From Halorussus gelatinilyticus (lineage in GTDB: Archaea > Halobacteriota > Halobacteria > Halobacteriales > Haladaptataceae), in assembly GCF_023238445.1 (NCBI RefSeq), contig NZ_CP096658.1:1302001-1366000 (forward strand): a DNA stretch of 64,000 bases, read 5' to 3'. A program made the position numbers and the translations under genes. Within the stretch, counting starts at the first letter, position 1. Each line of letters starts with the position of its first letter. The notes below the pieces were generated by a model. The model was not told the DNA's origin. It searched no databases and saw only the letters and a program-made list of their open reading frames with translations. Below, piece by piece: positions 2,126 through 24,528 of the stretch.

Positions 2126-3310
2126 ATGCGAGTAGTGGCCAAGTTCGGCGGCACGAGCCTCGGCAGCGGCGACCGAATCAACCGCGCGGCCGACTCGGTC
2201 GCCGACGCCGTGGCGCAGGGCCACGAAATCGCGGTGGTCGCCAGCGCGATGGGCAACACCACCGACGAACTGCTGGACGAAATCGAGTTCGAGACCGACG
2301 AGGCCGACCGCGCCGAGATCGTCAGCATGGGCGAGCGGACCAGCGTCCGGATGCTGAAGGCCGCGCTCGCGGCCCGCGGCGTCGAGGCCGTCTTCGTGGA
2401 ACCCGGCAGCGAGCGCTGGCCCGTCTTCACCGACGGGAACGGCGAACTCGACGCCGAGAAGACGAAGGAAGCCGCCGGCAAACTCGCCGCGGAACTGGAC
2501 GACGTGGTGCCGGTCGTCACGGGCTTCCTCGCCGAGGGCCCGGACGGCGGCGTCACCACGCTCGGACGCGGCGGGTCCGACACGACCGCCGTGATGCTCG
2601 GCAACTACATGAGCGCCGACGAGGTGGTCATCGTGACCGACGTCGAGGGCGTCATGACCGGCGACCCTCACGTCGTGGAGGGCGCGCGGAACGTCGGCGA
2701 AATCTCGGTGGACGAACTCCGGAACCTCTCGTTCCGCGGGGCCGAGGTCGTCGCGCCCAGCGCGCTCTCGTACAAAGACGAGGGGCTGAACGTCCGCGTC
2801 GTCCACTACCAGCACGGCGACCTGCTGGCCGGCGGCACCGACATCATCGGCGAGTTCGAGAGCCTCATCGACATGCGCGAGGAACCGCTGGCCTGCCTGA
2901 CGGTCGCGGGCCGAGCCATCCGGAACCGGCCGGGCATCCTCCAGGACCTCTCGACCGCCCTCGGCGACAGCGACATCAACGTGGACGCGGTGGCCAGCGG
3001 GATGGACTCGGTGACGTTCTACGTGGACGAGACGGTCGCCGAGCGCGCCGAGAACATCCTCCACCGCGAGGTCATCGACGAGGAGTCGCTGTCGAGCGTC
3101 ACGGTGGACGACGACGTGGCCGTCGTCCGGGTGATGGGCGGCGAACTCCCGAATCAACCCGGCGTCATCCGGAACCTCGTCAACCCCGTCGCGGACGCCC
3201 ACATCAACATCCACGACCTGATCACGAGCGCGACCAGCGTCGCCGTCTTCGTGGACTGGTCGGACCGCGAGGAGACGCTGGACATCATCCAGGACGAGTT
3301 CAGTAACTGA
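2126..3310 (+). CDS. lysC: Aspartate kinase
   Basis: Phosphorylates L-aspartate, the first step toward threonine, methionine and (where present) lysine or diaminopimelate. The 394-residue protein opens with the amino-acid-kinase motif KFGGTSLGS, has a mid-domain TLGRGGSDTTAV nucleotide/substrate loop and VTDVEGVMTGDP, and ends with tandem ACT regulatory domains (from about residue 255; 'AVASGMDSVTFYVDE' and 'GVIRNLVNPVADAHINI'). ACT domains imply feedback control by an end-product amino acid. Length is normal for a monofunctional archaeal enzyme. It stands alone and is followed by a GC hairpin with a T run. Confidence 0.95.
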   Translation: MRVVAKFGGTSLGSGDRINRAADSVADAVAQGHEIAVVASAMGNTTDELLDEIEFETDEADRAEIVSMGERTSVRMLKAALAARGVEAVFVEPGSERWPVFTDGNGELDAEKTKEAAGKLAAELDDVVPVVTGFLAEGPDGGVTTLGRGGSDTTAVMLGNYMSADEVVIVTDVEGVMTGDPHVVEGARNVGEISVDELRNLSFRGAEVVAPSALSYKDEGLNVRVVHYQHGDLLAGGTDIIGEFESLIDMREEPLACLTVAGRAIRNRPGILQDLSTALGDSDINVDAVASGMDSVTFYVDETVAERAENILHREVIDEESLSSVTVDDDVAVVRVMGGELPNQPGVIRNLVNPVADAHINIHDLITSATSVAVFVDWSDREETLDIIQDEFSN

Positions 3311-3326
3311 CGGTCCACCCGAAACT

Positions 3327-3350
3327 CGGGGGTCGCCCCGGAACGTTTTT
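3327..3350 (+). terminator. Possible terminator of aspartokinase; T run may also be a TATA element
   Basis: A five-pair hairpin CGGGG-gtcg-CCCCG (3327-3340) is followed by TTTTT at 3346-3350, 36 bases after the lysC stop. The same T run sits about 28 bases before ATG 3376, the usual TATA position for a haloarchaeal leaderless message, so it may serve both purposes. Confidence 0.4.
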
Positions 3351-3375
3351 CACCGATTGCGAACAATTCCCGAGC

Positions 3376-3459
3376 ATGCCTGCCGAATCCCGACTCGGCG
3401 GAAGCGCTCGCCAGCCACGCCACCAGCGCGCGGGGTTCGGCTTCTTCTTCGCGGCCTGA
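3376..3459 (+). CDS. Candidate Phe-rich leader peptide ahead of pheS
   Basis: A 27-codon ORF, ATG 3376 to TGA 3457-3459. Four of its last seven residues are Phe (codons 21, 23, 24 and 25, all TTC; local peptide GFGFFFAA). It starts about 28 bases after a T-rich TATA-like element, as a leaderless message would, and ends 13 bases before a strong hairpin; the next gene is pheS. The same arrangement (short Phe-rich peptide, hairpin, pheST) is known in enteric bacteria, where pheM-type leaders control pheST by attenuation. A sensing role here is inference: no expression or conservation data are visible. Confidence 0.45.
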   Translation: MPAESRLGGSARQPRHQRAGFGFFFAA

Positions 3460-3460
3460 C

Positions 3461-3513
3461 CGAGCGGCGGACTTCCGGCCGGGCGACGAGCCCGGCGGGA
3501 ACGAAACCGCTCG
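3461..3513 (+). promoter_or_regulatory. Strong hairpin between Phe-rich leader ORF and pheS
   Basis: Arms 3473-3484 and 3490-3501 pair at 11 of 12 positions (core CCGGGC/GCCCGG) round a five-base loop. Bases 3461-3467 (CGAGCGG) also pair perfectly with 3507-3513 (CCGCTCG), extending the base of the structure. No T run follows, so it is not an obvious intrinsic terminator; it could be a pause or attenuation element. A separate TATA-like element near 3555-3562 could give pheS its own promoter. Confidence 0.45.
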
Positions 3514-3604
3514 CGCGCGGTCGTCGGCCAGCGACGCGGCCGCGCTTCAGAAACGATAAGCGGGCGCACGGACACGTACCGACAACGAGCGACCCAGAGA
3601 CACG

Positions 3605-5113
3605 ATGAAACTACCCGAATCACAGGTCGCGGTGTTACGAGCCGCGAGCGCGAACGACGCACGGAGTATCGACCGACTGGCCGACGAGACCGGACTCAAA
3701 CCCGAGACCGTGACCGGCGCGGTCTTCGAGTTGGAGGACGAGGGTCTCGTGACCGTCGAGGAATCGACCGACGAGACCGTGACGCTCACCGACGAAGCCC
3801 GCGAGTACCTCGCGGACGGCCTCCCCGAGGTCCGACTCTACGAGGCCGCGCTGGACGCCGGGGCCGACGACGACCCCGCCCAGATGGGTCGAGTCATCGG
3901 CCAGTCCGGATTAGAGGGTCCGCAGGTGGACATCGCGCTGTCGAACTACGCCCGGAAGGGGTACGGCACCATCGAGAGCGGCGAGATTACCGCCGACCCC
4001 GACGCCGACCCCGAAAGCGACGCCGAGGCCAGCGCCCTCGCCGCGCTCGACGCCGGCGACTCGGTGGCCGGCGCAGACGTGCTGGACCAGTTACAGAGCC
4101 GCGGTCTCGCGGAACTCTCCGAGTCCACGGTGCGCTCGGTGACGCTGACCGACGAGGGCGTGACCGCGATGATGGAGGGCGTCGAGACGGCCGAGACGGT
4201 CGGCCAGTTGACCCCCGAGATGCTGACCTCCGGCGAGTGGCGCGACGTGGAGTTCGCCGAGTACAACGTCGAGGCCGACGCCGAGCGCATCGACGGCGGG
4301 AAGACCCACATCCTGCGCCAGACCGCCAACCGCGTGAAGGACACGCTGGTCGGAATGGGCTTCGAGGAGATGGAAGGCCCGCACGCCGACGCGGAGTTCT
4401 GGATCAACGACTGCCTGTTCATGCCCCAGGACCACCCCGCGCGCACTCACTGGGACCAGTTCGCGCTGGAGAACCCCCGCGAAATCGGCAAGTTGCCCGA
4501 CGACTTGGTTGCGCGCGTCGAGGACGCCCACCGGAACGGCGTCGGCGAGGACGGCGACGGCTACCACTCGCCGTGGACCGAGGAGGTCGCGCGGGGCATC
4601 GACCTGCGCGGGCACACGACGTCGCTGTCGATGCGATACCTCTCGGGCCACGAAGTCGGCGAGCTGGAGCCGCCACAGCGGTTCTTCAGCGTCGAGAAGG
4701 TGTACCGGAACGACACGCTCGACCCGACCCACCTGCTGGAGTTCTACCAGATAGAGGGCTGGGTGATGGCCGAGGACCTGTCGGTCCGGGACCTGATGGG
4801 GACCTTCGAGGAGTTCTACGCGCAGTTCGGCATCACGGACATCGAGTTCAAGCCCCACTACAATCCCTACACCGAGCCGAGCTTCGAGCTGTTCGGGACC
4901 CATCCCACGACAGGCGAGATGGTCGAAATCGGGAACTCGGGCATGTTCCGCGAGGAGGTGCTGGAGCCGCTCGGCGTCGAGTGCGACGTGATGGCGTGGG
5001 GCCTCGCGCTGGAACGCCTGCTGATGCTGATGTACGGTTTCGAGGACATCCGCGACGTCCACGGGACGCTGTGTGACCTCGACCTGCTCCGCGAGACGGA
5101 GGTGCTACACTGA
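3605..5113 (+). CDS. pheS: Phenylalanyl-tRNA synthetase alpha subunit
   Basis: The catalytic subunit of the alpha2beta2 class II synthetase that charges tRNA-Phe. The 502-residue size is the long archaeal/eukaryotic type. The N-terminal 200 residues hold winged-helix repeats (DRLADETGLKPETV..LEDEGLVTVEE) of the tRNA/DNA-binding kind. The catalytic core shows motif 2 (VEKVYRNDTLDPTH followed by LEFYQIEGW) and motif 3 (GLALERLLMLMYG). It is transcribed with pheT: the TGA stop at 5111-5113 overlaps the pheT ATG by one base, so translational coupling is likely. A possible attenuator lies upstream. Confidence 0.97.
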   Translation: MKLPESQVAVLRAASANDARSIDRLADETGLKPETVTGAVFELEDEGLVTVEESTDETVTLTDEAREYLADGLPEVRLYEAALDAGADDDPAQMGRVIGQSGLEGPQVDIALSNYARKGYGTIESGEITADPDADPESDAEASALAALDAGDSVAGADVLDQLQSRGLAELSESTVRSVTLTDEGVTAMMEGVETAETVGQLTPEMLTSGEWRDVEFAEYNVEADAERIDGGKTHILRQTANRVKDTLVGMGFEEMEGPHADAEFWINDCLFMPQDHPARTHWDQFALENPREIGKLPDDLVARVEDAHRNGVGEDGDGYHSPWTEEVARGIDLRGHTTSLSMRYLSGHEVGELEPPQRFFSVEKVYRNDTLDPTHLLEFYQIEGWVMAEDLSVRDLMGTFEEFYAQFGITDIEFKPHYNPYTEPSFELFGTHPTTGEMVEIGNSGMFREEVLEPLGVECDVMAWGLALERLLMLMYGFEDIRDVHGTLCDLDLLRETEVLH

Positions 5114-6840
5114 TGCCAGTCGTAGACGTGAATCCCGACGAACTCCGGGACTTGACCGGCCACGACGAGAAATCGGACGACGAACTCATCGACGACATGT
5201 TCGCCCTCGGACTCGAATTCGAGGGTCGGACCGAGGAGGGCGACCTCCAACTCGAGTTCGCGCCCGACCGACTCGACCGCCTCTCGGTCGAGGGCGTCGC
5301 GCGCTCGCTCCGCTACCAGTACGGCGACGACCGGGGGGTCTACGTCCCCGGCACCAACGACGCCGACTGGACCATCGAGGTCGAGGAGTCGGTGCCCGAC
5401 GAACGGCCCTACGTCACCGGCGCGGTGATTCGGGACGTGGACCTGGACGAGGACGCGCTCGATTCGCTCATCCAGTTGCAGGAGAAACTCCACGCGACGA
5501 TGGGCCGCAAGCGCGCGAAGGGCGCTATCGGCATCCACGACCTGACGATGCTGAAGGGACAGGCCGCGACCGCGGAGGGCCAGACCGAGGCGGGCAACTC
5601 CATCGTCTACCGGGGTATCGAGCCCGACGGCGACCGGTTCGTCCCGCTCGACTCGGACGCCGAGATGACGCCCGACGAAGTGCTGCGCTCGCATCCGACC
5701 GGCGAGACGTACGCCGACCTCGTGGCGGAGTACGACCGGTACCCCGCCATCTACGACGACATCGGGCTGTTCTCGTTCCCGCCGGTCATCAACGGCCGCC
5801 GGACCGAGGTCTCGACCGACTCGCGGGACCTGTTCGTGGAACTGACGGGCACCGACCAGTGGACCATCGACCACATGTGCAACGTCATCTGCTACGCGCT
5901 CGACGCCCGCGGCGCGAAGGTCGAAGAGGTCCGAGTCAGTTACCCGGACCGCGAATTGGTGCGCCCCGACTTCGAGGTCCGCGAGAAGACCGTGACCCAC
6001 GAGCGCATCGAGAGCATGCTCGGCATCGACCTCAGCGCCGAGACCGTCGTGGACCTGCTGGAGCGGTCGGGCCTCGACGCCGCGACCGAGGAGGTCGGCG
6101 ACGACGAACTGGCCTACGAGGTCGAGATTCCGCCCTACCGCGTGGACGTGCTTCACCCCCTCGACGTGGTTGACGACGTGGGCCGGGCCTACGGCTTCAA
6201 CGACCTCGAACCGCGCTACCCCGACGTGGGGACGGTCGGCGGCCGCCACGACCGGTCGAAACTCGAAGACGCCGCCCGCGAGGCGCTGGTCGGACTCGGC
6301 TTCGAGGACCTGCTCAACTTCCACATGATCAGCGAGGAGGAGAACTTCGACCGGATGCAGGTGTCGCCGGACGACGACGTGCTGGGTGCGGCCGACCCCG
6401 CGACCATCCTCGAACCCTACAGCGAGGACTACACCATGCTCCGGACGTGGGCGCTCCCCTCGATGCTGATGGTACTGGAGAACAACACTCACCGGGGGTA
6501 TCCGCAGGACCTCGCCGAAATCGGCCTCGCGGCCCGCGTGGACGAGCGCGAGAACACCGGCGTCGCCGAGCGCCGAACGGTCGCCGGAGTCCTCGCGCGC
6601 CACGACGCCTCCTACGAGGACGCCAAGGCTCGGCTACAGGCCATCGCCCGCAACTTCGACAAGGACCTCGAAACCCCGGCGACCGACCACCCGACGTTCA
6701 TCGACGGTCGCGCGGCCGCGATCGTGCTGGACGGGGAGACGGTCGGGGTCGTCGGCGAGATTCACCCCGCGGTGCTGGTCGAACACGACCTCGAACTGCC
6801 GGTCGCGGCGTTCGAGCTCCGACTCGACGCGCTAGAATAG
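5113..6840 (+). CDS. pheT: Phenylalanyl-tRNA synthetase beta subunit
   Basis: The beta subunit of PheRS, which supplies tRNA binding and the editing site. At 575 residues it is the archaeal/eukaryotic type, without the N-terminal EMAP/OB and C-terminal anticodon domains of bacterial PheT. B3/B4 editing-domain sequence lies at about 90-270 (GRKRAKGAIGIHDL) and B5 plus the synthetase-like fold follow (PPYRVDVLHPLDVVDDVGRA, residues about 340 onward). It overlaps pheS by one base and ends 31 bases before the convergent pyrD. Confidence 0.97.
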   Translation: MPVVDVNPDELRDLTGHDEKSDDELIDDMFALGLEFEGRTEEGDLQLEFAPDRLDRLSVEGVARSLRYQYGDDRGVYVPGTNDADWTIEVEESVPDERPYVTGAVIRDVDLDEDALDSLIQLQEKLHATMGRKRAKGAIGIHDLTMLKGQAATAEGQTEAGNSIVYRGIEPDGDRFVPLDSDAEMTPDEVLRSHPTGETYADLVAEYDRYPAIYDDIGLFSFPPVINGRRTEVSTDSRDLFVELTGTDQWTIDHMCNVICYALDARGAKVEEVRVSYPDRELVRPDFEVREKTVTHERIESMLGIDLSAETVVDLLERSGLDAATEEVGDDELAYEVEIPPYRVDVLHPLDVVDDVGRAYGFNDLEPRYPDVGTVGGRHDRSKLEDAAREALVGLGFEDLLNFHMISEEENFDRMQVSPDDDVLGAADPATILEPYSEDYTMLRTWALPSMLMVLENNTHRGYPQDLAEIGLAARVDERENTGVAERRTVAGVLARHDASYEDAKARLQAIARNFDKDLETPATDHPTFIDGRAAAIVLDGETVGVVGEIHPAVLVEHDLELPVAAFELRLDALE

Positions 6841-9641: not shown

Positions 9642-11112
<1,471 letters not shown>

Positions 11113-11226
11113 AACGCACGGGACCCACCCGCCGCGGTGGGCCCACACCCGTCTATCCACACCCGGATAGACACATACGCGAGGGTTCCTCGACGACCTC
11201 GACCATTTCGATGGTCGGGCACCTTT

Positions 11227-11248
11227 GAACTGCCAGGGCTGACGTTCA
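11227..11248 (+). other. 3' strand of the 16S precursor processing stem
   Basis: GAACTGCCAGGGCT (11227-11240) pairs perfectly with 9511-9524; GACGTTCA beyond it continues the helix imperfectly with TGATGTT. Confidence 0.85.
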
Positions 11249-11270
11249 TCCCCTCCTCAGACGAGGAGGT

Positions 11271-11342
11271 GGGCCCATAGCTCAGTGGTAGAGTGCCTCC
11301 TTTGCAAGGAGGATGCCCTGGGTTCAAATCCCAGTGGGTCCA
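11271..11342 (+). tRNA. tRNA-Ala (TGC) in the 16S-23S spacer
   Basis: 72-base cloverleaf. Acceptor GGGCCCA pairs with TGGGTCC (one G-U) and the discriminator base is A. Anticodon stem CCTCC/GGAGG encloses loop TTTGCAA with anticodon TGC. T-arm CTGGG-TTCAAAT-CCCAG. No encoded CCA. Its place between 16S and 23S is typical of Halobacteria. Confidence 0.98.
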
Positions 11343-11361
11343 TGTCGTGGTGCGAATCGAA

Positions 11362-11382
11362 CCGTGTCCCTTAAGTGGGAGA
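11362..11382 (+). promoter_or_regulatory. Possible internal promoter in the 16S-23S spacer
   Basis: GTCCCTTAAGTGGGA repeats the CCCTTAAGTG core of rRNA promoter unit 4 (9232-9241). It lies 20 bases after tRNA-Ala and about 210 bases before 23S. Spacer promoters have been described in other haloarchaea; activity here is inferred from sequence only. Confidence 0.45.
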
Positions 11383-11499
11383 CGGAACAACGATTCAATC
11401 CACACTAACCGATGCACTACACCGTGAAAGCGCGTGTAGGAAGGGTTCGACGCACGCTCCTATACCACCTATAGGACGTGACGATGACGACCGTATGTA

Positions 11500-11541
11500 C
11501 GTGCAATCCAGGCGTCCACTGGATCCGATTGCGATGCAGTC
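11500..11541 (+). other. 5' strand of the 23S precursor processing stem
   Basis: GTGCAATCCAG, GGATCCGATTG and GATGCA in order pair with TGCATC, CAATCGGGTCC and CTGGATTGCAC at 14525-14562. The interrupted helix fits the bulge-helix-bulge cut site round 23S. Confidence 0.8.
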
Positions 11542-11583
11542 AACTCCGGGTCACAGTGCGACCAACAACGATTACCAACAGCG

Positions 11584-14500
<2,917 letters not shown>

Positions 14501-14524
14501 TGCCGCACTGCACCCGAAAGTGAT

Positions 14525-14562
14525 TGCATCACAATCGGGTCCAGGCGTAAACTGGATTGCAC
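14525..14562 (+). other. 3' strand of the 23S precursor processing stem
   Basis: TGCATCACAATCGGGTCC and CTGGATTGCAC pair with 11501-11541, closing the 23S precursor helix. Confidence 0.8.
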
Positions 14563-14634
14563 ACACTACATACGGTCAATCGTCGAACCACCGACACTGG
14601 CGTAGTAATCGCGGTTCGATTCCGCGAGTCGGCG

Positions 14635-14757
14635 TTAAGGCGGCCACAGCGGCGGGGCGACACCCGTACCCATCCCGAACACGGAAGTTAAGCCCGCCTG
14701 CGTTGTGGGGAGTACTGGAGTGCGCGAGCCTCTGGGAAATCCACTTCGCCGCCTCCC
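14635..14757 (+). rRNA. rrf: 5S ribosomal RNA
   Basis: Starts TTAAGGCGGCCA and ends GCCGCCTCCC; the ends pair as helix I. The conserved CCCGAACACGGAAGTTAAGC (14675-14694) confirms 5S. About 123 bases; the 3' end is approximate. Confidence 0.96.
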
Positions 14758-14767
14758 ACTCATACAC

Positions 14768-14806
14768 AAACCCCCGACTGCAGCATGATGCTGCGGCCGG
14801 GGGTTT
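14768..14806 (+). terminator. Terminator hairpin after 5S
   Basis: AAACCCCCG (14768-14776) pairs with CGGGGGTTT (14798-14806), enclosing a second pairing GCAGCA/TGCTGC. T-rich sequence follows. It lies 11 bases after 5S, so it probably ends the main rRNA transcript; tRNA-Cys has its own promoter. Confidence 0.75.
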
Positions 14807-14894
14807 CCTCATTTCGAACGCACACTCTACGATTCCCGGCAAGCCACGGCACCCGGCGACACGCCCGGCTCCCAGCCACTATCGCTGCGGACCG

Positions 14895-14906
14895 CTATAT
14901 TTAAGC
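14895..14906 (+). promoter_or_regulatory. Promoter of tRNA-Cys
   Basis: TATATTTAAGC is a near-consensus archaeal TATA box, about 30 bases before the mature tRNA 5' end at 14933. Confidence 0.7.
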
Positions 14907-14932
14907 GCGCCGAGCGAATATCAGAAGATAGC

Positions 14933-15008
14933 GCCAAGGTGGCAGAGTCCGGCCGAACGCAGCGGCCTGCAGAGCCGCCCATCGCCGGTTCAAATCCGGC
15001 CCTTGGCT
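14933..15008 (+). tRNA. tRNA-Cys (GCA)
   Basis: 76-base cloverleaf. Acceptor GCCAAGG / CCTTGGC with discriminator T, as expected for Cys. Anticodon stem GCGGC/GCCGC, loop CTGCAGA, anticodon GCA. T-arm GCCGG-TTCAAAT-CCGGC. No intron. Confidence 0.97.
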
Positions 15009-21700: not shown

Positions 21701-21817
21701 GGTTGGTCTGTCCGGACGCGTCGGGTTAACTGTTGTTGAAACGACCGACCGAGACCGCCGGCGAGAATAGCGCGACGGTCGAGACTCACACGACAGTCGA
21801 AAATAGCGCGACGGCGG

Positions 21818-23470
21818 TCAGTCGCGCTTGCGCGGACTGTCCAACTCGATGTCGGCCTCCTCCAGCAGGTCTTCGACTTCCTCGCGCTTCTCCTGGTGTT
21901 CCGCGAGGAACTCCTTCATCAACTGGGCGGCCTGCTCCTTGCAGTCGCCACAGAGCCGTTCGCCGCCGACGCACTCGTCGTAGACTTCCTTGGCGAACTC
22001 GTCGTCGTCGCCCGCCAGCAGGTAGGCGTACAGTTCGTACACCGGACACTCGTCGGCCCGCCCGCCGAGTTCGCGCTGTTTCTCGGCGGTCTCCCGGCCG
22101 CCGGTGGTCGCGGCCTTCACCTTGTCGTAGCCGTCTTCGGGGTCGTCCAGCAGGCTGATGTGGCTCGCCGGGACCGACGACGACATCTTCCCGCCGGTAA
22201 GTCCGGTCATGAACCGGTGGTAGAGCGACGAAGGCGCGACGAAGCCGTAGCCGCCGTGGTCCAGTTCGACATCGCGGGCCAACTCCTCGGCCGCATCGCG
22301 CGAGAGGTCGAAGGCGTCGATGTGCTCGTCGAAGACGCGCTTCTCGCCCTCCACGGCGTCGATGAGCGCGCCGAAGGCCTCCTCGGTCGCGTTCCGGTCG
22401 AGGAACCGTACGCGCGGTCGGAGCGGTTCTTTGCCCGCTTCCCGGAGTTTCGACACTACGCTCTCGCGGGCGTCGTCGGGCGTCACTTCCTCGGCCAACC
22501 AATCGGCGGCGTCCTCGCACCGGACCACGCCGTCGCTCTCCTCGGCTTCGTCGGCGAGCGCGGCGTGCGCGGCCGCGAGCAGTTCGCGCTCCGCTTCGTC
22601 GGCCTCGAAGCTCGCGTACGCCTTCGTCACGCCGAAGTAGCCCATCCGGGCCGCGAGGTCACGCGCGAGGCGGACGTGGGGGTCCTGGTCGGGACCGACT
22701 GGGATGACGGTCGGCTTGGGTTCGTCCAGTTGCGGGTAGAGGATGTCGGCCATCTGGGTTACGACGCTCTGCATGTGCGAGACGCTGGTCTCGCCCGAGA
22801 AGCCGTAGATGTTCTCCAGTTCCGAGAAGTTGGCTTCCGACCCCAACTCGAAGGCCAGGTCCTGCACCTCGCGGTCGCCCGACTGTCGGTAGAGAGTGCC
22901 CTCCTCCGGGTCGAATCCGAGCGCGAGCAGGCTCAGCAGGTAGTCGCGGGCGTGTTCGTCTATCTCGTCCCACGATAGCCCGCGGGCGCTGTGGGCTTCG
23001 AGGTCGGCGATGAGCGCGTAGGCGTCGCCGCCCTGCCGTTGGTGCCAGATTATCTCGTCGAACACCAGCTTGTGCCCGATGTGGGGGTCGCCGGTCGGCA
23101 TGAACCCCGAGAGCGCGGCGAACGGTTCGTCGTTCACCATCGCGTCGGCGACCCGGCGGTAGTCGCGGTGGCCGAAGATGACGCCCCGCCGCATGAGGTA
23201 GTGGGGGTCGGGCACCTCCGGCAGGACCTCCTCGAACTCCTCGATGCCGAACTCCTCGAACAGCTTCCGGTAGTCGGCGATGGTCGCCGACCCCCACGGG
23301 TCGAGCGTCGTTTCGTCCTCGCCGCTCGCGGCGGTGCCCCCGTCGGGCACGGCCCGACGACCCGCTGACTCTGACCCCGACTCGTCCGACTCGGTGCCCT
23401 CGTCGGGAAGCGTTTCCGGCGCTGTACTCTTTCGCCCGTCCGCTCGGTCGCGGTCCGTATCTCGTGTCAT
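21818..23470 (-). CDS. trpS: Tryptophanyl-tRNA synthetase
   Basis: Class I synthetase charging tRNA-Trp. 550 residues from ATG 23470; the frame extends further but that overlaps endA. HIGH-type motif TGDPHIGH and KMSKS-type motif GGKMSSS are present, with GPDQDPHVRLARDLAARMGY between. The first 55 residues are a disordered Ser/Asp/Glu/Gly-rich extension. A C-terminal charged helix (EEVEDLLEEADIEL) ends it. It starts eight bases after the endA stop, so endA-trpS is an operon, a pairing common in haloarchaea. Confidence 0.96.
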   Translation of the reverse strand: MTRDTDRDRADGRKSTAPETLPDEGTESDESGSESAGRRAVPDGGTAASGEDETTLDPWGSATIADYRKLFEEFGIEEFEEVLPEVPDPHYLMRRGVIFGHRDYRRVADAMVNDEPFAALSGFMPTGDPHIGHKLVFDEIIWHQRQGGDAYALIADLEAHSARGLSWDEIDEHARDYLLSLLALGFDPEEGTLYRQSGDREVQDLAFELGSEANFSELENIYGFSGETSVSHMQSVVTQMADILYPQLDEPKPTVIPVGPDQDPHVRLARDLAARMGYFGVTKAYASFEADEAERELLAAAHAALADEAEESDGVVRCEDAADWLAEEVTPDDARESVVSKLREAGKEPLRPRVRFLDRNATEEAFGALIDAVEGEKRVFDEHIDAFDLSRDAAEELARDVELDHGGYGFVAPSSLYHRFMTGLTGGKMSSSVPASHISLLDDPEDGYDKVKAATTGGRETAEKQRELGGRADECPVYELYAYLLAGDDDEFAKEVYDECVGGERLCGDCKEQAAQLMKEFLAEHQEKREEVEDLLEEADIELDSPRKRD

Positions 23471-23478
23471 AGTATCAG

Positions 23479-24528
23479 TTACGGGGTCAATCGACCCACG
23501 GAAATCCAGTCGGTTATCTCTTCGTTCGGGCCTACGAGCGCAAAAATCATCCGTTTTCGGACCCCGTGGGCGAGGCGCACGTCCAACGCGAGGTCCCGCG
23601 GCGAGAAGATGTGGTCGGTCGGAAGCACCCGGACGAGACACTCCGAGTGGCCCAACTCCTCGACCGACTCTACGTCGGCGTAGGTCCGGAAGTCCGACCC
23701 GAACTTGAACCCGGTCTTGGGGACCATCCCGCGCTCTCGGAGCGCACGGTAGACCCGGAGTCGGCGGTCGAACCGCTCGCCTTCGACCTCGCGGCCGTGT
23801 TCGCGGACGGTCTCGGTTTCGGGGTCGTCCGTTCGACCGCCCAACGAGAGGACGCCCTCGTCGGCGAGGTACGCCGCTTCGACCAGCGACAACTGGAGCG
23901 CCCGGTCCCGATCGCGGTCGCGGTCGTCCAGCGGTTGGCCGTAGAATCCCCGGTGGTGCAACTCCTCGGGCGGGTCCCAGACCAGCACGCGGTCGTCCAG
24001 CAGGTCGGCGGGAACGCCCGCGGGGAGGTCGGTCGCGGAACTCCCGCGGAGGTCCGCCCGGTCGGTTTCGAGGTAGGTTATCTCGCTCTCCTCGTCCACG
24101 ACCGCCAGCACCACGTCGCCCAACCGGTCGGCGGGCACGTCCGCGCGTTCGCCGACGACCCGGACGCGGTAGAGGACCGAGTCGTCCCACGGTCCCTTAC
24201 CGCGCGGATAGACCACGAAGTCGGCGTTCGACCGGGGCGCATCGACCCACCCCTCGCGGGCGGGCGAGAGGTAGAACCCCCGGTCGCGCAGGTCGGCGTA
24301 GACGAGGAATCGCGTGGCTATCTCGTCGCCCGCGTCGGCGAGGAACTCCCGGAAGCCCATGCCGTCCACGCCGTCCAAATCGCCTTTGAACAGCAGGTAG
24401 GCCGCTTCGACGCGCGAGAGCGCGACGCTGTTGGCCTCCAAGGGGCGGCCGTACCCGCTGGAGTCGTAGTAGCGCTGGCGGGCGTCGCCGCCGACCACCA
24501 CCTCGTCGTCTCGCAGGCGTCCGTCCAT
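23479..24528 (-). CDS. endA: tRNA-splicing endonuclease EndA
   Basis: Cuts bulge-helix-bulge structures in intron-containing tRNAs and in pre-rRNA, including the 16S and 23S stems seen in this window. 349 residues from ATG 24528: two tandem copies of the endonuclease unit (LSRVEAAYLLFKGDLDGVDG and LSLVEAAYLADEGVLSLGG mark the repeats), the fused form that works as a homodimer in haloarchaea. Catalytic residues are in the second copy: Tyr in SDFRTYADVE, His in LGHSECLVRVL and Lys in GVRKRMIFAL. Confidence 0.95.
   Translation of the reverse strand: MDGRLRDDEVVVGGDARQRYYDSSGYGRPLEANSVALSRVEAAYLLFKGDLDGVDGMGFREFLADAGDEIATRFLVYADLRDRGFYLSPAREGWVDAPRSNADFVVYPRGKGPWDDSVLYRVRVVGERADVPADRLGDVVLAVVDEESEITYLETDRADLRGSSATDLPAGVPADLLDDRVLVWDPPEELHHRGFYGQPLDDRDRDRDRALQLSLVEAAYLADEGVLSLGGRTDDPETETVREHGREVEGERFDRRLRVYRALRERGMVPKTGFKFGSDFRTYADVESVEELGHSECLVRVLPTDHIFSPRDLALDVRLAHGVRKRMIFALVGPNEEITDWISVGRLTP

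Follow-up and report, generated by a model that had tools for sequence, protein, structure and literature searches.

The window, a 64,000-nt stretch of the Halorussus gelatinilyticus genome, contains adjoining genes for the two subunits of phenylalanine–tRNA ligase, pheS and pheT, preceded by a short leader ORF with its own promoter and by two RNA stems, here called P1 and P2 (Table 1). The leader ORF comprises 27 codons (MPAESRLGGSARQPRHQRAGFGFFFAA) and runs on the forward strand from the ATG at 3376 to the TGA at 3457–3459. Its last seven codons, F-G-F-F-F-A-A, include four for Phe, and 145 bases separate the end of the ORF from the start of pheS. The first-pass annotation of this DNA had proposed a Phe-rich leader peptide and hairpin ahead of archaeal pheST. 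It described the 27-codon ORF with four Phe codons among its last seven, a hairpin of 11 out of 12 possible pairs that begins 13 bases further on and is extended at its base by seven more pairs, and a TATA-like element at leaderless distance. All of these elements were recovered, the identity of pheST being confirmed by NCBIfam matches, and the core proposal is strongly supported by class-wide conservation of the peptide, reading frame, promoter, and hairpin, together with a published Haloferax volcanii start site (see below). The window also carries a complete rRNA operon (9642–15008), with genes for 16S, tRNA-Ala(TGC), 23S, 5S, and tRNA-Cys(GCA).

Table 1. Features of the pheST locus and of the trpS2 leader in the same genome.
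Feature	Position	Strand	Description
Core promoter GGAACGTTTTT	3340..3350	+	BRE and TATA-like element, ~28 nt 5′ of the leader ATG
Leader ORF	3376..3459	+	conserved pattern M[AP]x[E][SP]...GFGFFFA
P1, 5′ arm GCCGAATCCCG	3382..3392	+	codons 3–6; pairs with the Gly-Phe-Gly codons
P1, 3′ arm CGGGGTTCGGC	3431..3441	+	contains the first Phe codon (3436–3438)
Three consecutive Phe codons	3442..3450	+	presumed sensing codons, directly 3′ of P1
P2 hairpin	3461..3513	+	outer stem, internal loop, inner stem
P2 outer stem	3461–3467/3507–3513	+	seven perfect pairs
P2 internal loop	3468–3472/3502–3506	+	symmetric 5x5, CGGAC/CGAAA; three G.A/A.G oppositions
P2 inner stem	3473–3484/3490–3501	+	11/12 pairs; starts thirteen bases after the stop codon
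Probable second, pheS-proximal promoter GAAACGATAAGC	3550..3561	+	AA[C]xGxTAA[AC]-like element
pheS, phenylalanine–tRNA ligase alpha subunit	3605..5113	+	NF003210, E=4.7e-179 (NCBIfam)
pheT, phenylalanine–tRNA ligase beta subunit, archaeal type	5113..6840	+	TIGR00471, E=2.7e-136 (NCBIfam)
trpS2 leader	C1 ~982917–982976		Trp-Arg-Trp codons within a covarying intra-ORF hairpin

Leader ORF and promoters in Haloarchaea

One scan yielded 80 further haloarchaeal pheS loci. An ATG-initiated ORF of 20–50 codons, with at least three Phe codons among the last 10 and located within 450 nt upstream of pheS, was present in 68 of 79 haloarchaeal pheS upstream regions. The corresponding controls gave no such ORF on the reverse strand, none in a window further upstream, and a mean of 0.12 in shuffled sequences, which rules out a chance ORF. 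The loci that lack the leader include several from other haloarchaeal genera and some from Natrialbaceae. A covariance model built from 49 leaders matches 311 of the 391 Halobacteria genomes (76/86 genera), almost always once, and there is essentially one real copy per genome; approximately one-fifth of haloarchaeal genomes have no match to the model. Among the listed genomes of other classes of the phylum, the model found none. Second matches to the full model within a genome either have P1 on the opposite strand or are weak (E above 0.001), and they fall mostly into coding-like sequence. Matches to a model of P2 elsewhere in the genome, among those listed, are likewise situated in coding-like sequence.

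The aligned leader peptides begin with M[AP]x-E-[SP], vary in their middle part, and carry GFGFFF close to the C-terminus. The frame from the ATG to the Phe codons is intact in all 38 scorable copies among 41 model-found loci that were read out, the model behind this count having itself been built from in-frame sequences; one leader locus from a draft assembly is out of frame. The first Phe codon, which lies inside the 3′ arm of P1, is TTC in each of the 69 aligned loci. The three Phe codons outside the stems encode Phe in 68, 57, and 60 of the 69 loci, respectively, with TTC and TTT interchanging freely. Selection thus appears to preserve amino-acid identity at the three unpaired codons and the nucleotide at the paired one. 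TTT accounts for 62 of the 187 free leader Phe codons and for 60 of the 1307 Phe codons in pheS (odds ratio 10.3; p = 7e-28, by a statistic that ignores shared ancestry). Such an enrichment is compatible with selection favoring codons that are read slowly or a stretch that stays unpaired. Judged by its pattern of change, the leader ORF is translated. The peptide has no match in Pfam (E≤1) or NCBIfam (E≤0.1).

A motif of the type RNAACG[C/T]TTTT was found at the same spacing upstream of the leader in nearly all 69 aligned loci. In the genome studied here, the GGAACGTTTTT motif is followed by an ATG 21–27 nt later in 13 cases, whereas the reversed pattern does not occur, which marks it as a genuine leaderless promoter type. 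The spacing of the leader promoter implies a leaderless transcript. A second element is located closer to pheS. Matched by a loose pattern in 73 of 80 loci, mostly 33–50 nt 5′ of pheS, it takes the form AACxGxTAAC in many of them and also occurs at loci that have no leader; elements of the GAAACGATAAGC type are, by this conservation, a probable second promoter of pheS.

Published data on Haloferax volcanii bear on both promoters. The available text of Babski et al. (2016; PMC4983044) lists, in Table 2, a 26-aa uORF (pI 5.9, 2772 Da) for pheS (HVO_2948), contained in a 5′UTR of 150–250 nt; the sole mapped transcription start site of pheS lies upstream of this uORF, and none was mapped at pheS itself, under optimal growth. 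The Haloferax leaders in our set are 26 aa long, with a pI of 5.9 in some species. The nearest of them (26 aa, pI 5.9, 2792 Da) is likened to the H. volcanii uORF by the size, pI, and mass given in that text only. These published H. volcanii data suggest that the leader may be transcribed together with pheS, alongside a likely second promoter in loci of this type.

Paired Stems of the Leader RNA

The hairpin described in the first-pass annotation corresponds to P2, and that part of the description holds; a second conserved stem, P1, and the invariant internal loop of P2 had been overlooked. P1 connects the beginning of the leader ORF with the codons immediately before the Phe triplet. In 69 sequences, 97.8% of P1 cells are paired, compared with at most ~60% in a slid register, and 38 cells show double changes against 9.4 in shuffled alignments. 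At codon 5, Ser (TCC) is mostly accompanied by GGA on the opposite arm and Pro (CCC) by GGG, so that an N-terminal amino-acid change is matched by a silent change ~45–60 bases later. Conservation of the leader peptide at its N-terminus is therefore explained by base pairing in P1.

Folded alone, P2 has a predicted energy of -37.2 kcal/mol (z = -4.91), and none of 200 shuffled sequences was as stable. Its covariation is stronger than that of P1: 89.3% of cells are paired, double-change cells number 129 against 48.6 in shuffles, and the covariation score is 0.479 against 0.162. On the PheS tree, both sides of stem pairs changed several times and never in opposite directions in the tested pairs, the independent pairs being too few for the tree-based sign tests to reach 0.05 individually. 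In most loci the outer stem of P2 starts 0–5 nt after the stop codon; the first-pass annotation had remarked that a ribosome at the stop codon would touch the left arm of the hairpin.

While the stems of P2 vary freely, the bases of its internal loop (YGGAY/CGAAA) show little or no variation across 70 loci. The three oppositions within the loop are G/A in 70/70 loci, G (replaced by A in four loci) against A, and A/G in 70/70. This loop resembles a protein- or structure-constrained motif. In many loci, although not universally, a further hairpin of variable sequence lies between P2 and the pheS-proximal element (3514–3549 in the window).

The first-pass annotation had named conservation of the Phe codons and of ORF length, and stem covariation, in relatives as the check on its proposal, and both the recurrence of the ORF and the covariation of P1 and P2 speak in its favor. 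On this comparative evidence the Phe leader is genuine and common across the class, and selection acts on both its peptide and its RNA.

Possible Modes of pheST Control

We consider it likely that the leader is translated and acts in cis, sensing charged tRNA-Phe through the position of the ribosome and adjusting pheST expression. In the scheme suggested by the sequence, a ribosome would enter at the 5′ end, pass P1, and arrive at the Gly-Phe-Gly-Phe-Phe-Phe codons. If Phe-tRNA is plentiful, it would reach the stop codon, with its leading edge over the 5′ base of P2, so that P2 would be held open and P1 could refold behind the ribosome. With scarce Phe-tRNA it would park on the Phe codons, three to six codons back, leaving P1 open and allowing P2 to fold as a whole. 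The footprint of a ribosome extends about a dozen nucleotides 3′ of its A site, and a ribosome at the stop codon would therefore cover the 5′ base of P2, whereas one at the Phe codons largely would not. Expression would be ON with P2 folded, when the hairpin, perhaps aided by a protein that binds it, would block factor-dependent termination or decay, and OFF with P2 disturbed. We infer this sign of control from physiology, since a synthetase is usually induced when its product is short; the output step, too, is a proposal. Speaking for the scheme are the class-wide occurrence of the leader in essentially single copy, the covariation of P1 and P2, the selection on the Phe codons with their enrichment in TTT, the intact frames, the short distance from the stop codon to P2, the H. 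volcanii uORF, and the independent leader of trpS2 described below. Several observations are at odds with the scheme: P2 has no T-run, the helix that could form between the 3′ arm of P1 and the 5′ strand of P2 (the 2:3 helix) lacks clear covariation, the predicted accessibility of the pheS start is unchanged when the base of P2 is blocked, and about one-fifth of the genomes have no match to the model. A second promoter downstream of the leader could, moreover, bypass the control.

Alternatively, P2 might be a transcription terminator without a T-run, comparable with those of bacterial pheM and pheL, the ribosome position choosing between P2 and the 2:3 helix. The hairpin S12 terminates transcription with 59% efficiency in H. 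volcanii in vivo, clearly below a T-stretch control (PMC7237163), and seven pairs between GGRUUCG of the P1 3′ arm (segment 2) and YGGAYYC of the P2 5′ strand are possible in most species, with 91.5% of cells paired (90.5% in shuffles). However, this helix shows little covariation beyond that of shuffles, and a non-standard pair occurs mid-helix in 30 of 69 sequences. In 70 loci, the stretch from P2 to pheS never contains TTTT, and the termination motif AGATC follows P2 in only two of them; the first-pass annotation had already noted that no T run follows the hairpin. Furthermore, since Phe codons are placed in and after segment 2, a starved stall would favor P2 and hence termination when Phe is short, opposite to what a synthetase gene would require, and the CGAAA side of P2 would be left without explanation. 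Termination at P2 is, on this evidence, an unlikely output. A slightly smaller chance is given to recognition of the conserved RNA structure by a protein, or by PheRS in autoregulation; the role of the ORF would then be confined to admitting ribosomes to the RNA or holding them off, and sensing of Phe-tRNA would be secondary. The invariant YGGAY/CGAAA loop within freely varying stems favors this reading; the Phe identity kept at three stem-free codons, their synonymous switching, the enrichment of the rare codon, and the parallel Trp codons ahead of trpS2 speak against it.

Control at the level of translation, with the leader structure hiding or freeing the pheS start codon, would agree with the long 5′UTR reported for H. 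volcanii in the available text of Babski et al. (PMC4983044). Sequestration of the start nevertheless found no reflection in predicted accessibility, which is the same for a ribosome at the Phe codons and at the stop codon (mean difference -0.008; higher in 4 of the 69 sequences, lower in 7), making this reading very improbable. For uORFs in long 5′UTRs, the H. volcanii authors name an independent small protein as an alternative in the same text (PMC4983044), and the leader ORF does have its own promoter. That it is such a gene, next to pheS by happenstance, is nonetheless hardly credible: its central residues vary widely and P1 pairing explains the conserved N-terminus, no believable second copy was seen in the genomes examined, the databases searched contain no matching family, and the neighbor in the aligned loci is always pheS.

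Known Systems and the trpS2 Leader

Leader-peptide attenuation is a textbook mechanism relying on coupled transcription and translation, and pheM and pheL of Enterobacteria are ribosome-mediated attenuators of pheST and pheA. The haloarchaeal leader shares with them a short ORF with clustered Phe codons directly 5′ of the Phe-tRNA synthetase operon and a stable hairpin at once after it. It differs by its archaeal host, the leaderless start without a Shine-Dalgarno sequence, a P1 stem built from the first codons of the ORF itself, the lack of a T-run, an antiterminator that is only a candidate, the invariant tandem G.A loop, and the likely second promoter downstream. The likeness to the pheM–pheST attenuator drawn in the first-pass annotation is thus retained for the layout but not for a T-run terminator or for covariation of an antiterminator. 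Among the features of an attenuator, a clustered-Phe leader ORF under coding selection and conserved stems around the sensing codons were found; TTTT was not, and membership among the bacterial attenuators is for this reason not established. Class membership aside, a leader that reports Phe-tRNA charging through ribosome position would work like those attenuators. T-box leaders of Gram-positive bacteria sense tRNA directly; both are RNA leaders of synthetase genes, and the archaeal leader region (3300–3620) has no Rfam match at E≤1.

In open-access papers, a coverage outside which most subscription journals fall, no description of leader-peptide attenuation in archaea was found. The pheS and Trp ligase uORFs were already recorded by Babski et al. 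(2016; PMC4983044), whose available text makes no mention of cognate codons, conservation, RNA structure, or amino-acid regulation.

A comparable leader precedes trpS2, a second Trp-tRNA ligase gene with a close relative in 21 of 59 genomes of the class. Its peptides are MESALSTWRWQSPGERTVS in the genome studied here and MVSTSHANCWRWHAFREVDSIAV (23 aa) in H. mediterranei. In most of these leaders the first codons pair with the codons after Trp-Arg-Trp, and the stem covaries between them (GTCCGCTCCC/GGGAGCGGAC, GTCCACTTCC/GGAAGTGGAC, ATCTACTTCC/GGAAGTAGAC). The available text of Babski et al. (PMC4983044) gives a 23-aa uORF for HVO_A0127, annotated as tryptophan–tRNA ligase, and the 23-aa Haloferax trpS2 leader has the same length. 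In both the pheS and the trpS2 leaders, the opening codons are base-paired to codons that adjoin the sensing codons or lie past them. In Streptomyces, the gene of an auxiliary tryptophanyl-tRNA synthetase is controlled by attenuation. The haloarchaeal trpS2 leader, read as sequence only, is comparable to that leader-peptide control of an extra TrpRS, although it belongs to another domain of life and the leaders are unrelated.

Archaea may possess a form of leader-peptide control of their own, a proposal to which we give somewhat less than an even chance. It would combine leaderless ORFs in which the opening codons form a stem with the sensing codons or across them, serving at least pheST and the second trpS, with an output that needs no T-run, e.g., a G.A-loop hairpin steering factor-dependent termination or mRNA decay. 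Should the Phe leader function as its anatomy suggests, ribosomes in archaea would signal the supply of an amino acid to gene expression just as in bacteria, but with leaderless initiation and no terminator of the bacterial kind. Control of archaeal transcription or mRNA fate by ribosome position becomes directly testable in the tractable H. volcanii.

In the same genome, inspection by eye of short ATG ORFs before the Ile, Val, Leu, Met, Cys, Thr, Ser, His, Pro- and Gly-type, Asx, and Tyr synthetase genes found no cognate-rich leaders. The other Trp-tRNA ligase gene, of the widespread type, is located on the minus strand of the window (21817–24190), ~18 kb from pheS, and has no obvious Trp-rich leader. 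In the trpS2 leaders, a pyrimidine-rich GCTCACTCGCTTTCTC-like stretch after the stop codon is also conserved.
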